DNA of 41,490 nucleotides from Tepidanaerobacter sp. DTU063 (lineage in GTDB: Bacteria > Bacillota > Thermosediminibacteria > Thermosediminibacterales > Tepidanaerobacteraceae), in the NCBI GenBank assembly GCA_001512695.1, contig LFSJ01000174.1, positions 1-41,490 on the forward strand. Direction: 5' to 3'. The translations under genes were made by a program, and so were the position numbers. Positions 9,662 to 17,739 of this stretch are shown in pieces (position 1 is the stretch's first letter; each line of letters opens with the position of its first letter). The notes beneath the pieces were generated by a model. That model had not been told where the DNA came from. It ran no database searches and worked only from the letters and a program-made list of their open reading frames with translations.

Positions 9662-11308
9662 TTACATTCTAGGTATCACCAGTTGTTGGCCCGGCATTAT
9701 GGAATCGGGATTGGCTATGTTGTTAGCTCTAACTATGGCTTCCACGGTGACATTGTACCTCTTGGCTATATTCCAGAGAGTGTCCCCCCTCTGAACGATA
9801 TAGATGGTCATGGCCGGCTTATCGTCCTTCTTCTCCTTTTTCTCCTTCTTTTCCTCTTTTTCTTCTTCTTCCTCTTCTACATACTCTTCTTCCACGTGTA
9901 CAACTATGTCAAGCTCAACCATTTGAGTTACCTTGGCAAAGAGGCCTAGCACCGCCCTGACCTCGAAGCGCCTCGGATCATTGGGTATTGCCGATGAAGA
10001 GCAGTGCTCCACTATCACATCAAAGTCCAGCATCATGTCTTCTTCGGCACCGGGTATTTCCACAAAGGTAGTAAAGTCTATCTCGTGCTCCATGAAGTGC
10101 AGGGGCTGCTGCGGCTCTCCCTCCGGCACATCGGCTACGTAGAGGGTCTCTAATGTCAGGACCCCTTCCACGATAACCTTGCCGTCGATTATCCTGGACT
10201 CGGTCACCCTGGCCTTGCAGCTGGTCTTGTATATCTGCTCGATGTCCGGCTTTTCATCGGGCACCGTCAGCGTGTCTTTGATGACGATCTCGTTTTCATC
10301 TTCGCCGATGACCTGGTCGAGTTTTAAGCGTTTCTTTTCTACGTGCAGTTCCTTGGAGGGGCTGAAGATATCTATGACTACCTGGATAATCTTGGTCTCG
10401 AAGACCTTGGCCCTGATCTTGAGTATTGCCTCTACGGTGACGGTCCTATCGTCCTTGCGGCGGCCCTTTATGTGCTCCACTTCCACCCGGATAAACCTGG
10501 CCATACCCTCATCGGCGCCGTGAATCTCCACAAATTGGGTAAAGGGTATCTCGGCTTCCATGAAGTGCACCGGCTGCAGGGGTTGACCTTCTGGAGCTAT
10601 GGCCACGTAGAGGATACCCACTTCCAGTACGCCTTCGATGATTATCTTGTTTTTAATAATCTTGCTGGTTACATCCCTGACTTCCGCCTTTACCTTCAGT
10701 ATTTGCTCGATGCTGGGCTTTTCCTCCGGCACACCTACATCGCTTTTTACTATGTTCTGGGCCCTGGCTTCACCTATGACATCCTCGATGCGCAGGGTTT
10801 TCTTGAGCACCTGGAGATCTTTTGGCCCCGTAGCATCGATGACGATCTCGATTTCAACCCGCCTGGTGACCTTCACGAAGAACATGACGACAAGTCTAAC
10901 CTTGATTTCCCTCGGCCTGTTGGGGTCGAAGCTGTGCTGGATGTGTTCGATCTTGGCCCTAACCCTGACGTCCATATCTTTTTTGACACCGGGAATTTTT
11001 ACAAAAAAGCTAAAGTCAATTTTACCTTCTACAAAATGAACCGGCTGCTGTGGCTGGCCTTCCGGAACATCCGCCACGTAAATGGCATTGACATCCACTT
11101 CGCCTTCAACTATCACCTTGCCTATTTTAGAATCCAGGATGTCGGTCTCCAAGCTTTCTGTGTCCAGGGTTGCGTCAATGGAAATGACCCGCTCTATGTC
11201 CGGCTTCCCATCAGGTAGCGTGATGGTTCCTTCTACTATGGCCTGGGTCTTGTCTTCGCCGACTACCTTATCTACCCTTACCAGTTCCTTTGTCAAATAG
11301 ACACCCAT
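9662..11308 (-). CDS. sipL: SPOCS-domain (DUF3794) x3 plus LysM spore coat protein, SipL-like
   Basis: Likely spore morphogenetic protein that anchors the coat through SpoIVA, as SipL does in C. difficile. Three tandem SPOCS (DUF3794) domains lie at about residues 8-155, 165-320 and 322-470. Each begins with a pattern like VGEDKTQ...LPDGKPDIE and contains YVADVPEGQPQQPVHF or a close variant. A charged E/K linker (about 472-500) leads to a C-terminal LysM motif (501-548, YIVQRGDTLWNIAKRYNV). ATG 11308 has AAAGGAGG at good spacing. The length (548 aa) and layout agree with SipL. In C. difficile sipL lies near yabG, as here, and its product is processed by YabG. The paralogous possibility is another SPOCS/LysM protein. 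A mother-cell-type promoter precedes it (11349-11377). Confidence 0.8.
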   Translation of the reverse strand: MGVYLTKELVRVDKVVGEDKTQAIVEGTITLPDGKPDIERVISIDATLDTESLETDILDSKIGKVIVEGEVDVNAIYVADVPEGQPQQPVHFVEGKIDFSFFVKIPGVKKDMDVRVRAKIEHIQHSFDPNRPREIKVRLVVMFFVKVTRRVEIEIVIDATGPKDLQVLKKTLRIEDVIGEARAQNIVKSDVGVPEEKPSIEQILKVKAEVRDVTSKIIKNKIIIEGVLEVGILYVAIAPEGQPLQPVHFMEAEIPFTQFVEIHGADEGMARFIRVEVEHIKGRRKDDRTVTVEAILKIRAKVFETKIIQVVIDIFSPSKELHVEKKRLKLDQVIGEDENEIVIKDTLTVPDEKPDIEQIYKTSCKARVTESRIIDGKVIVEGVLTLETLYVADVPEGEPQQPLHFMEHEIDFTTFVEIPGAEEDMMLDFDVIVEHCSSSAIPNDPRRFEVRAVLGLFAKVTQMVELDIVVHVEEEYVEEEEEEKEEKKEKKEKKDDKPAMTIYIVQRGDTLWNIAKRYNVTVEAIVRANNIANPDSIMPGQQLVIPRM

Positions 11309-11348
11309 TAAAATCCTCCTTTCCCTAAAATTCACCACCTTACTCCTA

Positions 11349-11377
11349 TAATATATGTGAAGCTTGACAAATATGTT
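11349..11377 (-). promoter_or_regulatory. Mother-cell (sigma-K/E type) promoter of the SipL-like gene
   Basis: AACA (-35), 16-base spacer and CATATATTA (-10). This matches the sigma-K consensus mACm-N16-CATAnnnTA at all fixed positions. The -10 also suits sigma-E, but no well-placed sigma-E -35 is seen. The transcript would start near 11342, about 34 bases before the gene. Confidence 0.55.
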
Positions 11378-12950: not shown

Positions 12951-13001
12951 CAATAAGTTAGGTGCCAGGCACCAAATATTAACTTATTAGTGCATGGCAC
13001 C
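12951..13001. repeat. REP-like palindrome, GGTGCCnGGCACC family (copy A)
   Basis: GGTGCC-A-GGCACC (12961-12973) is flanked by the inverted pair AATAAGTTA / TAACTTATT, followed by a degenerate second half, TGCATGGCACC. The repeat overlaps the last codons and the stop of the protease gene, so the residues GAMH and the TAA come from the repeat. A related copy lies at 26915-26946. Confidence 0.65.
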
Positions 13002-14006
13002 GGGAAGTTCTACTTGGAGGGTCTTTAGCACGTTTACTATGGGATTGATGAGGGTTGCCTGGTCGGAGCCGGCAAATAAAAGGCCTACCGCCCTCAGGTT
13101 CTCATCGACTACAATGGAACCGCTGTCGCCGGGCTGGGCCATGGGACCCGTGAGGATCTGGTCGTAAAAGGTAGCTTCCTCGGTCGGCCCTAGCATGACC
13201 TTTATCACCACATTTAAGGCCTGTATTTGGCTGGAGGTGATTCCCGTGGTGCGGCCGCTCTTTTGGACGGTCATGCCGATCTTGGGCTCCTGGATGCCCG
13301 AAATTTTACCCAGGCCCATTATTTCCCCGCTCACATACTCATCCCTCACTGGCCTTGCTACCGCCGCATCTACCAGGTTCCTGGCCGTGCTTTTTTTGAT
13401 AAAATTGATTTCGTAGTCAGGCTTTATCACTTTTAAAAGGCTGTTGATGGCCTTTTCTAGGCCTTGGGCTATCGGGCAGGAGCTTTCTGCAGCGTTTTTT
13501 GCGATCGGAACAAATCTTTCCAAATGGGCGATTACATCCGACGATGTCCCCCCGTCGTGGCCTCCCGGCTGGAGTATCGCGTCACCGATCACGGCTTTCC
13601 CGTCACCGCCGTCGGTGGCATTGGCCAGGACGTGATTGTTGGACAGGATCAGGAGTCGGCCCGTCTTTACATCTTTCACCAGGGCCCCAAAGGTGCCTGC
13701 CGTGATCTTGTAATGGCCTATGCTCATGCCGGGCTTGGCGGGCCTTGCCCTCTCGATTCGGGCATTCAATAGTTTCACATCACCTACTTCCACCACATCG
13801 GTCGGGGTATTGCTCAAAACCTTGGGCACGCAATTTCGGCCCAGCAGTTTTTCATCGGCAATCTTTTCTCTCACAAGGACCATGATGGCGGGCTTGTTGG
13901 TCATTTTGTCCTTTATTATTTTATATCCTAAGCCCACGCCCACCACATTTTCCAGGCATAAGAGTTTCTTCTCATGCTGCCGCAAAATTCGGGAAATCCT
14001 TTCCAC
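12987..14006 (-). CDS. Trypsin-like serine protease
   Basis: Chymotrypsin-fold peptidase of 339 aa without a clear signal peptide, so probably cytoplasmic or spore-associated. The catalytic triad is visible: His125 in LSNNHVLA, Asp213 in VDAAVARP and Ser295 in PGDSGS. The first 90 residues are a family-typical leader region (VVGVGLGYKI). The substrate is unknown. The start is GTG 14006 with AAAGGGGG 9 bases upstream, but that ribosome site lies in the 3' arm of a perfect hairpin (14014-14058) followed by T7. This suggests control of transcription or translation by the RNA structure. The C-terminal four residues and stop lie in a palindromic repeat. The position next to veg, yabG and coat genes makes a sporulation role plausible. 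Confidence 0.85.
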   Translation of the reverse strand: MERISRILRQHEKKLLCLENVVGVGLGYKIIKDKMTNKPAIMVLVREKIADEKLLGRNCVPKVLSNTPTDVVEVGDVKLLNARIERARPAKPGMSIGHYKITAGTFGALVKDVKTGRLLILSNNHVLANATDGGDGKAVIGDAILQPGGHDGGTSSDVIAHLERFVPIAKNAAESSCPIAQGLEKAINSLLKVIKPDYEINFIKKSTARNLVDAAVARPVRDEYVSGEIMGLGKISGIQEPKIGMTVQKSGRTTGITSSQIQALNVVIKVMLGPTEEATFYDQILTGPMAQPGDSGSIVVDENLRAVGLLFAGSDQATLINPIVNVLKTLQVELPGAMH

Positions 14007-14535: not shown

Positions 14536-15963
14536 TTATTCGTGATAATAGGCTTTAATTCCATTGATTATCGCCACAGCAGCTTTCTGCCTGAACTGGG
14601 GTTCGGATAGTAGACGTTCCTCCTCCGGATTGCTGATTGCTGCGATATGCACCATGACGGAAGGATTGTTGGTCTCCCGGAGCACAAATAGGTCTGCCGG
14701 CTTTGCCCCCAAATCCCTCAGCTGTAAAATGGTCACCAGTTCCCGGTGTATGATGCAGGCTAATTTCTTGCCTTCCACATCGCCGGGATAATAAAAGCTT
14801 TCCGTTCCACCCGAGTCTTCCTCGGGAAAAAAGTTCTGCTGAATGCTTAAAGTTATGTCGGGCTTGTTTTCATTGGAAATGCGGACCCTTTCCGAAAGGC
14901 TCACAAATTCATTTTTGTCGCGGGTCAGTATCACCTTGGCCCCGCACTGCACAAGGCCCTCCGCCGCGACCCTTGCTATTTCGAGATTTACATAGCCCTC
15001 CGACAGCCCCATGGGGCCGGAATTGCCGCTATCGCCGCCATGGCCCGGGTCGATGACTATGGTCTTGCCTATGAGGGGCTTGGCATAAGTGGGCCTTTCC
15101 AAGCCCTTTAGCTCCACGCCCGTGAAGTAAAACTTTAATATCTCATCCACGGGAAAGCCCAAAAGGGCCATGCCCCTGGCTCCGTACTGGCAAAGGCCCA
15201 GGCCGTTGCCCTGGCCCATCACCTGGAAGGAGAGTGCTGAAACCTTCCATGAAAACTTGGTGGAGGAAAGGCCCAGGAGGTTCTTTATATCTTCAGCCTG
15301 AAAGACCATGTCCCCTATCTTTAGTTTCTTTATGCGGCCGGAGGCTGTGGAATGAATGTTTTCCAGCAGCCCCGGAATCTCCCTCTTATCGGAAAAGCCG
15401 TCATCAAAGTTGATGGCCAGCCTACGCTTTAACTCCCTTATCGAAAAATTTTTGGTAGTATTCCAGTAGGGCGAATCCTTGCAGTATATGCATTCCACCC
15501 GTCTCAGGTAACTGACCTTATTTCCCCAGACATTTTCTGAATCCTCCGTGCAGCCCCCGCAGGCTTCATGGTATACCGCCTCTATGGGATTGTTGTTATA
15601 GGTCAGTATTATTTCCGCAGTGTCCTCCACGGCAGTTGCAATCTTCTCCGTAAATTCTTCGTAGCGGCTGCCCCAGGCTTTCTGCCTTTCCTCAATGCCC
15701 ATAAAGCCCTGGCAGTGCACGGGATCGTTGCAAAGGTCAAAGCCGGGATGGCGCTTGCAGCCGCCTCCTCCGAAAATACCCATGCGCTTTACGGCCAGGG
15801 TCCTGCAGCATATGGCCTGGGCTTTTAGGGCTTCCACGGGGAATTCGGGAGGCATGCTGGCAGCCACCGCCCCTATCACATATTCCCTTATGCCGACTAT
15901 CCGCGCCTCCTGCTGGTCGGTGTGATAGAGTTTTACCGTGAGTTCCTCATTGTCAAAGTCCAT
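14536..15963 (-). CDS. SpoIID/LytB-domain protein fused to a degenerate N-acetylmuramoyl-L-alanine amidase domain
   Basis: Probable sporulation peptidoglycan protein, 475 aa. Residues 1-290 form a SpoIID-type lytic transglycosylase domain: VEALKAQAICCRTLAV, the cysteine pair in HEACGGCTEDSENVW, and GQGNGLGLCQYGARGMA, where the family usually has a His for the Asn. Residues 298-475 form an Amidase_3 domain. Its first two zinc ligands are present (His308 in DPGHGG, Glu322 in SEGYVNLE). The third (His in ISIHxN of CwlD) is Gln375 in LSIQQN, and the catalytic Glu (IEVGFLSN) is His439 in VHIAAISN. The amidase half is therefore probably inactive and may bind glycan. There is no signal peptide. ATG 15963 has GGTGGTGA upstream. 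It lies 21 bases after yabG, so it is presumably cotranscribed from the sigma-K-type promoter. Confidence 0.85.
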   Translation of the reverse strand: MDFDNEELTVKLYHTDQQEARIVGIREYVIGAVAASMPPEFPVEALKAQAICCRTLAVKRMGIFGGGGCKRHPGFDLCNDPVHCQGFMGIEERQKAWGSRYEEFTEKIATAVEDTAEIILTYNNNPIEAVYHEACGGCTEDSENVWGNKVSYLRRVECIYCKDSPYWNTTKNFSIRELKRRLAINFDDGFSDKREIPGLLENIHSTASGRIKKLKIGDMVFQAEDIKNLLGLSSTKFSWKVSALSFQVMGQGNGLGLCQYGARGMALLGFPVDEILKFYFTGVELKGLERPTYAKPLIGKTIVIDPGHGGDSGNSGPMGLSEGYVNLEIARVAAEGLVQCGAKVILTRDKNEFVSLSERVRISNENKPDITLSIQQNFFPEEDSGGTESFYYPGDVEGKKLACIIHRELVTILQLRDLGAKPADLFVLRETNNPSVMVHIAAISNPEEERLLSEPQFRQKAAVAIINGIKAYYHE

Positions 15964-15984: not shown

Positions 15985-16848
15985 TTACTCGTAGGGCGAT
16001 CGGGGAAGACCCTCCCTAAACTTGCCTCGGGTCTCAACGCCTCCTATACCTTTGATACCGGTTATGGTGGCGTCTATCACGTCCCGGGCAGATATGATTT
16101 TATTAATAGGGGTGTATGCCACCTTCTCTATTATGAACACCGGGTCCAGTGCGTGTATGAAGACCCGGTGGGGAGAGCTGGCAAAGTTTGCTCCCGCTCT
16201 GAGCAGCCCCTCGTAGTGGGACTGGCATGCTCCCGCAAATATCACCAGATCATCCAGGGATGGCTCAAAGCGCCTGGCATTTCGCACCGCTTCAATAAAG
16301 TACTTGGAGTTCCGGTAATTGTCCACCCTGTTAAAGTCCCTCTTTTCTTTAAGCAGACCGTCATGGCCGGTAATGACCAGGATATCGGGATTGTATTTGA
16401 CCAAGAGGCTGTTGATTCTCTTGGGCTGATTTTTTTCGGCTATGCATTCGCCATAGGCTTCAATGTCCAGTTGCCTATAGGTGGTGAGACACAGGTCCAG
16501 ATACTCTTCATCACCGTCGATGTGTAGAACCATCCCCGGTAAAACAAAAAAACCGTTGCTCCCCTCAGCGTTGTTCCGCGTCATGCGCCGCTGTTTTTCC
16601 AGTTCCCGCCGGTAGAAGATCCGCTCCATGGACTCGTTGCTCTTTTTGATGTAATCCCTCTTGTATTCCCTCACTTCGGTCGAGCTGGGTAAAATCAAGT
16701 CATCGATGGGAGCATCGGCAAGCACTCTCACGTTGAGACCTTTTAAAGTGCAGCAGCCCTTATCCTCCATGATGTCAACCACTTTGAAAAAAACATCTTT
16801 ATTGTATGATACACGGGCTACCACATCCCCTATTTTGACTTTAGCCAC
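15985..16848 (-). CDS. yabG: Sporulation-specific protease YabG
   Basis: Cysteine-type protease that trims spore coat proteins late in sporulation (SafA and others in B. subtilis, SpoIVA and SipL in C. difficile). The family motifs are clear: ITGHDG (about residue 165) and FAGACQSHYEG (about 207-217), holding the proposed catalytic His and Cys, then SPHRVFIHALDP. GTG 16848 was chosen because GGGGG lies 6 bases upstream, and the result, MAKVKIGDVVARVSY, matches how YabG proteins begin. An in-frame ATG at 16866 is possible. The length is 287 aa. It is the first gene of a two-gene unit with the SpoIID-amidase fusion, diverging from a glycosyltransferase. Confidence 0.95.
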   Translation of the reverse strand: MAKVKIGDVVARVSYNKDVFFKVVDIMEDKGCCTLKGLNVRVLADAPIDDLILPSSTEVREYKRDYIKKSNESMERIFYRRELEKQRRMTRNNAEGSNGFFVLPGMVLHIDGDEEYLDLCLTTYRQLDIEAYGECIAEKNQPKRINSLLVKYNPDILVITGHDGLLKEKRDFNRVDNYRNSKYFIEAVRNARRFEPSLDDLVIFAGACQSHYEGLLRAGANFASSPHRVFIHALDPVFIIEKVAYTPINKIISARDVIDATITGIKGIGGVETRGKFREGLPRSPYE

Positions 16849-16873
16849 ACGTATCCCCCATTTCATTATATTT

Positions 16874-16902
16874 CACCATTATTCGGTTTATTACATAATA
16901 TG
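16874..16902 (+). promoter_or_regulatory. Sigma-K-type promoter for the glycosyltransferase
   Basis: CACC (-35, 16874-16877), 16-base spacer and CATAATATG (-10, 16894-16902). This fits mACm-N16-CATAnnnTA except for the last base. The same nine bases, read on the other strand, serve as -10 for yabG. Confidence 0.5.
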
Positions 16903-16922
16903 ATGCTAGCAGGGGGGATGTG
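16894..16922 (-). promoter_or_regulatory. Sigma-K-type promoter for yabG
   Basis: CACA (-35, 16919-16922), 16-base spacer and CATATTATG (-10, 16894-16902). It fits the sigma-K consensus except for the last base; yabG is a known sigma-K gene in B. subtilis. The -10 is shared with the opposing promoter. Confidence 0.6.
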
Positions 16923-16950: not shown

Positions 16951-17739
16951 ATGAACATGGCCGTTGTTCCTGCAAAAAATGAGCAGGGAAGAATCGGCAG
17001 GGTTCTCAGTTTGCTGAAACAAACTCCTGTAGATAGAATCGTCGTAGTGGTAAACGGTTCCTCGGACGATACCATGAAAGAAGTAAAGGGGCTGAGACTG
17101 GAAAACTTGGAAATCCTGTACTTTACTCCCGAGCTTGGCATAGATATTCCCAGGGCCATCGGGGCCTATTACGCTTACAGGGAGGGGGCGGGCTGCGTGG
17201 TCTTCGTCGACGGGGATTTGATCGGCAATATTCGGACACTCGTTGATGAACTGGTCCATTCGGTGACCTGTCAGGGAGCGGACCTGGCCATGACCGATTG
17301 CTACCCCAGCTTGGAGTACAAGAGCGAGCTTACCGAACAGATACTCCTCTTTCGGAGTTTACTCAATCTCAAGCTGGACCTTTACGACGAAATCGGCGTG
17401 GCCACCCCCTCCCACGGCCCCCATGCGGTTTCCCGCAAATTAATGGAAGGCATCGATTTTAGGTACTTTGCGGTGCCGCCCATGGTCCTGGCCTTTGCCA
17501 GAAAGCAGGGCCTTTCCGTACAGGTGCCCTCAAAACTGCCGCAAAAATACCTCGGCTCAAAGATAAGGGACTACTTTCACGCCAAGAGAATTGCCGATAC
17601 CATTATCGGCGACACCCTCGAGGCCATCAATTATTTCAGTGGGAGGCCCCGAAGCCGCTGTTACCTGTATAAGGAATACCAGGGATACAATCCCTTCAGG
17701 CGCTTTGACATACTGGAAAGCTTTCTGTCAAAGGCTTGA
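16951..17739 (+). CDS. Family 2 glycosyltransferase, probably sporulation-linked
   Basis: Cytoplasmic GT-A glycosyltransferase of 262 aa that would transfer a sugar from a nucleotide donor; the acceptor is unknown. Visible are VVPAKNEQGRIGRVL at the N-terminus, VVVNGSSDDT (about residue 34) and the metal-binding VFVDGDL motif (about 87), followed by an acceptor region. No membrane segment is seen. ATG 16951 follows GAGGTGA; an in-frame GTG at 16942 overlaps the ribosome site. It is one of the few plus-strand genes. It diverges from yabG with overlapping sigma-K-type promoters, which suggests expression in the mother cell and a role in spore coat or surface sugar, as for SpsA-type enzymes. Convergent with ykuK across a shared terminator. 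Confidence 0.8.
   Translation: MNMAVVPAKNEQGRIGRVLSLLKQTPVDRIVVVVNGSSDDTMKEVKGLRLENLEILYFTPELGIDIPRAIGAYYAYREGAGCVVFVDGDLIGNIRTLVDELVHSVTCQGADLAMTDCYPSLEYKSELTEQILLFRSLLNLKLDLYDEIGVATPSHGPHAVSRKLMEGIDFRYFAVPPMVLAFARKQGLSVQVPSKLPQKYLGSKIRDYFHAKRIADTIIGDTLEAINYFSGRPRSRCYLYKEYQGYNPFRRFDILESFLSKA

Follow-up and report, generated by a model that had tools for sequence, protein, structure and literature searches.

How can two divergently transcribed genes draw on promoters that appear to share a single -10 element? The question is raised by positions 16874-16922 of a stretch of 41,490 nucleotides from Tepidanaerobacter sp. DTU063 (contig LFSJ01000174.1), which we refer to as the window. The site lies in a 102-nt intergenic region and is probably a bidirectional sigma-K promoter, one that would direct the transcription of the sporulation protease gene yabG and a SpoIID/amidase gene one way and of a gene for a GpgS-like family-2 glycosyltransferase (GT) the other way.

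A palindromic -10 element flanked by two -35 elements

Along the plus strand the site reads CACC (16874..16877), a 16-nt spacer (16878-16893), CATAATATG (16894..16902), a second 16-nt spacer (16903-16918) and TGTG (16919..16922), the last being CACA on the minus strand. The nine central bases, which lie inside the longer sequence TACATAATATG, form a palindromic -10 of the kind that defines bidirectional promoters, with one element legible on both strands: as CATAATATG on the plus strand and as CATATTATG on the minus strand. On the plus strand CACC-16-CATAATATG faces the GT gene and on the minus strand CACA-16-CATATTATG faces yabG, exactly as in the original prediction of two mACm-type -35 elements, each at 16 nt, around a shared nine-base -10. 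The consensus for sigma-K has AC in the -35 and CATAnnnT as the -10 (PMC3789822, PMC517825). In the window the AC is present at the spacing of 16-17 bp in both directions (CACA and CACC), and both -10s read CATAnnnT. Each matches five of the six fixed bases of CATAnnnTA, the final A being replaced by G at position 9. The position of the -10 predicts transcript starts at 16887 on the minus strand for the yabG operon, with a leader of about 39 nt to the GTG at 16848, and at 16909 on the plus strand for GT, with a leader of about 42 nt to the ATG at 16951; by this geometry the two starts would lie 22 bp apart. No GGACA, as expected of a SpoIIID site, was seen on inspection of the intergenic sequence by eye, and no known RNA element in the region reached the Rfam gathering cut-offs.

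The arrangement is not a chance occurrence. The window contains five copies of the half-motif MACM-N16-CATANNNT, where shuffled sequences would give 1.05, and two of the five are the divergent pair described here. In the window's own genome there is a single copy of the double motif MACM-N16-CATANTATG-N16-KGTK (reversed control, 0). It is present in 13 genomes, namely every one of the 12 in the window's family that bear yabG and G014 from the sister family, once in each and always at this locus; nowhere else in the 26 genomes of the class was it found, and the controls again gave 0. Outside the order it was found in 4 of 387 genomes of the phylum, or about 0.01 per genome, a rate from which the probability of a chance match in a 41-kb window is about 2e-4. 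We considered whether the double motif might be a general device in the phylum and rejected the idea: those four matches are at chance level and are without a clear divergent pair of spore genes. Shared -10s with longer symmetric cores of 10 or 11 bp (CATANNTATG, CATANNNTATG) and both -35s were absent from the 26 class genomes.

Conservation of the site within the order

The order is represented by 21 yabG-bearing genomes, 12 of them from the window's family and nine from its sister family (G014 and eight others). That the arrangement should be conserved in relatives had been proposed as a check on the original prediction, and it is: the divergent yabG/GT pair is retained and TACATAATATG is unchanged in all 21, the GT-direction -10 CATAATATG included. 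By comparison, the same genomes share not a single invariant base among 83 fourfold-degenerate sites of yabG and GT, and the longest invariant run in the coding sequence of the two genes is 3 nt. On the yabG side ACA is found at 16 nt in 21/21 genomes, as CACA in one family and AACA in the other.

The GT side is more varied. In all 12 genomes of the window's family TTTCAC stands at the exact 16-nt position before CATA, followed only by C or A, as mACm permits, in a leader that is otherwise variable. G014 (locus L025), a deep branch of the sister family, has TTCACA at the same place, so that CAC[CA] is retained in 13 of the 21 genomes; the other eight have TGAAAT there. On a tree of yabG and GT the loss of the GT-side -35 is one change in one eight-genome subclade, and CAC[CA] is ancestral. 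At the expected sigma-K -35 of GT these eight loci (L017-L024) carry an invariant GAAATCTTT, which may serve as a -35 resembling that of sigma-E or as a site for an activator. A weight matrix trained solely on yabG-direction promoters from outside the order places the best site for each direction at this palindrome in 21/21 genomes, with GT-direction scores of 13.5-18.0 that fall to 9.9 in the eight-genome subclade.

In 11 of the 12 family genomes the spacer that separates the yabG -35 from the shared -10 contains a run of G residues (AGGGGGGATGTGAGC, 16912-16917); the twelfth has GGGAGG. The run is not present in the sister family and exceeds what a sigma-K spacer needs.

The link to sigma-K and the proposed mechanism

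The window's genome carries a sigma-K gene (360 bits). In B. subtilis yabG is under the control of sigma-K, as it is in C. difficile, where its transcription is lost without that factor (PMC3789822, PMC10681294). The genomic signature of sporulation includes no other dedicated member of the sigma-K regulon (PMC10681294). One member of the window's family, G012 (99% complete), has neither yabG nor GT nor any sigma-K match above background; it is apparently an asporogenous lineage. The motif, the gene content and the conserved arrangement support the original claim of two sigma-K-type promoters that share one -10 between yabG-spoIID/amidase and GT, and from the sequence evidence we infer that sigma-K would use the site in both directions.

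Late in sporulation, sigma-K RNA polymerase in the mother cell would read the single palindromic -10 in either orientation, the choice being made by which of the flanking mACm elements is contacted by region 4 of the sigma factor. Contact with CACA at 16919-16922 would send polymerase towards yabG and the SpoIID-amidase gene, and contact with CACC at 16874-16877 towards GT. Because opposed polymerases would melt the same base pairs, simultaneous occupancy should be excluded and binding in one orientation would momentarily block the other. It has been stated of bidirectional promoters in general, from work with E. coli, that one binding orientation excludes the other (PMC12825309). The same study found basal bidirectional promoters in E. 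coli to be too weak to compete measurably, interference appearing only when one direction was strongly activated (PMC12825309). The earlier argument, that the two promoters cannot be occupied at once and are hence in competition, is therefore sound in its first part, where exclusion is expected from the geometry, and open to doubt in its second. Competition between the two directions is possible as a form of regulation. We regard as doubtful the stronger idea of an order-wide either/or switch, in which each mother cell would fire towards the protease and SpoIID-amidase or towards GT and exclusion would set the ratio and the timing.

Other explanations for the shared element

Three observations weigh against a bidirectional sigma-K promoter. 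The first concerns the palindrome itself: the yabG -10s from outside the order already favour CATAnnAT[AG]TA, with G common at position 9, and the conservation of the palindrome is therefore partly explained by the yabG promoter alone. The second is that eight of the 21 genomes, all from the sister family, keep the palindrome with AAAT at the GT-side -35. Because the AC of a sigma-K -35 is missing there, sigma-K co-control of GT may fail in that subclade. Thirdly, the -10 elements recognised by sigma-E and sigma-K are nearly identical (PMC3789822).

The first of these bears on the most serious alternative, that the site is a sigma-K promoter for yabG only, with a -10 that is fortuitously symmetric, and that GT depends on another or a weaker promoter. 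It would account for the unequal retention of the two sides, with the yabG-side elements in 21/21 genomes and the GT-side -35 in 13/21, and for the resemblance of yabG -10s outside the order to CATAnnATG/ATA regardless of any shared use. It does not account for the presence of TTTCAC at the exact 16-nt position in 12/12 family genomes, and of its counterpart in G014, amid a leader that otherwise varies; nor does the 102-nt intergenic region of the window hold any other plus-strand mACm-16-CATA site from which GT might be transcribed. Most distant relatives, moreover, have a clear sigma-K-like promoter belonging to GT itself. We consider this explanation unlikely. A GT promoter has good, if not conclusive, independent support from three features taken together: the T and G by which CATA is completed on its strand, the TTTCAC box and the lack of a second plus-strand site.

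A second alternative, which we judge quite improbable, gives yabG to sigma-K and GT to sigma-E, acting earlier in the same mother cell, at least in some members of the order; on that view the two factors would use the shared -10 one after the other and not in competition. The eight sister-family genomes lend this idea some substance, since their invariant GAAATCTTT lacks AC and loosely resembles a sigma-E -35. In the window, by contrast, the GT side has its -35, CACC, at the spacing of sigma-K, and ATA at the sigma-E spacing is absent on both sides of the site; CAC[CA], moreover, is the inferred ancestral state. Least credible of all, to the point that we give it almost no weight, is that both sites are weak vegetative promoters of the sigma-70 type read by sigma-A: each does score 9/12 against TTGACA/TATAAT (TTCACC-16-CATAAT and CTCACA-18-TATTAT), but the three such sites in the region are at chance level (1.4 expected, sd 1.4), the G of TTGACA is never found on the GT side, yabG orthologues are sigma-K genes, and yabG and GT have been lost along with sigma-K in G012.

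Origin of the shared -10

A bidirectional sigma-K promoter in this order has a plausible antecedent in farther relatives. GT orthologues (E below 1e-20) were found in 34 of 200 genomes of the phylum, and GT is divergent from yabG at every locus checked. Outside the order a yabG-side mACm-16-CATA site is found at most of the loci, and a separate GT-side mACm-16-CATAnnnT[AG] site at many of them. The loci from other Firmicutes (L026-L030 and L070-L092) thus resemble the window in having the same two genes in the same orientation, mostly with a sigma-K-like site before each; they differ from it in that the -10s are about 50-70 bp apart, so that polymerases bound in the two directions would not have to collide at a common -10. 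In four relatives from the same class that lie outside the order, the yabG -10 CATATT is kept, the plus-strand CATA is absent (CAGAATATG, CTAGGATATG, CAATAATATG) and an AACM-16/17-[CAT]ATATAAT site stands closer to GT. Within the order the intergenic region is about 105 bp. The simplest history suggested by these comparisons is that the order's ancestor had two divergent sigma-K promoters, at first separate, which became one as the intergenic region shrank; the shared -10 seems to be a fusion peculiar to this order.

At locus L091 of a phylum relative, the GT promoter reads TACA-16-CATAATATG, with the same 9-bp palindrome about 38 bp before GT. Its origin there is independent of that genome's own yabG promoter.

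The genes on either side of the site

The yabG gene (15985..16848, minus strand) is identified at the equivalog level by TIGR02855 (376.8 bits against a cut-off of 270.4) and also matches PF05582. Its GTG start at 16848 was chosen from relatives, some of which have ATG at the same place; an in-frame ATG at 16866, upstream of the GTG, is not conserved in relatives. A conserved small upstream open reading frame in the yabG leader was ruled out, neither its frame nor its start being conserved. Directly downstream on the same strand lies a gene whose domain matches are to SpoIID fused to Amidase_3 (14536..15963), which is likely to belong to the same operon. It follows yabG in 25/25 yabG-bearing genomes of the class, four of which have extra intervening sequence. 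No obvious signal peptide was seen by eye at the N-terminus of the protein, which, as a guess, may be an enzyme of late wall remodelling or of mother-cell lysis.

The GT gene (16951..17739, plus strand; PF00535) begins with the ATG at 16951, preceded by the ribosome-binding site GAGGTGAG. Its structure model (pLDDT 95.7) has a GpgS-like GT-A fold, and the closest solved structures are glucosyl-3-phosphoglycerate synthases (TM about 0.6, 20% identity), a likeness that in the model fixes the fold class and says nothing about the substrate. Its product could, at a guess, modify coat glycans or synthesise a small glucoside. The proposal that the three genes form a spore-coat module is established for yabG, while membership of the SpoIID-amidase and GT is a guess.

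Two other features of the window lie farther from the site. The minus strand at 11350-11377 has AACA-16-CATATATT just upstream of a SPOCS/LysM (SafA/SipL-like) gene (9662-11338), likely a further candidate promoter for sigma-K or sigma-E. A reading frame at 12987-14006 of the minus strand, between veg and a gene for a YkwD-type CAP protein in a spore gene cluster, has a weak match to the NAL1 N-terminal domain (PF25608).

A probable developmental variant of the bidirectional promoter

Bidirectional promoters with a shared symmetric -10 were reportedly described by Warman et al. in 2021 (cited in PMC10268837). Most accounts of bidirectional promoters concern housekeeping sigma factors, and the prevailing view is that such promoters disappear or change over time. 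In B. subtilis the cgeAB and cgeCDE operons, one of which includes a glycosyltransferase-like gene, are adjacent, divergent, late mother-cell operons of the sigma-K regulon; they have separate, GerE-dependent promoters and in this are unlike the site in the window. That site is like the symmetric bidirectional promoters in having one -10 for both strands, -35s on both sides and no room for dual occupancy. Its predicted start distance of 22 bp is also within the range of 7-25 bp that is given in part of the published accounts, where 18 bp is commonest and 10 and 23 bp are frequent (PMC12825309, PMC10268837). It differs in that the known examples have the TATAAT of sigma-70, whereas here a sporulation sigma factor's -10, of the CATA type, is found throughout the order, with the yabG -35 in 21/21 genomes and the GT -35 in 13/21. 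With the single sigma-K promoters of B. subtilis (PMC517825) and C. difficile (PMC3789822) it has in common the AC in the -35, the CATAnnnT -10 and the presence of yabG in the regulon; it is unlike them in superimposing two promoters on one -10 and in having G, not A, at position 9 of each. Our literature search found no published case of overlapping divergent sigma-K promoters, which is weak evidence as most subscription journals were outside its coverage.

This is, then, a known kind of promoter, and what is new here is its developmental-sigma form. A bidirectional promoter for a sporulation sigma factor has apparently persisted for as long as the order has existed, and its two-promoter precursor is visible in relatives. 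An uncharacterised GT family, divergent from yabG wherever checked, is thereby tied to late sporulation. Because a long-kept shared -10 and a separate-promoter precursor in relatives can be set side by side, the locus is a natural test of whether the sharing of a -10 is selected or merely tolerated.
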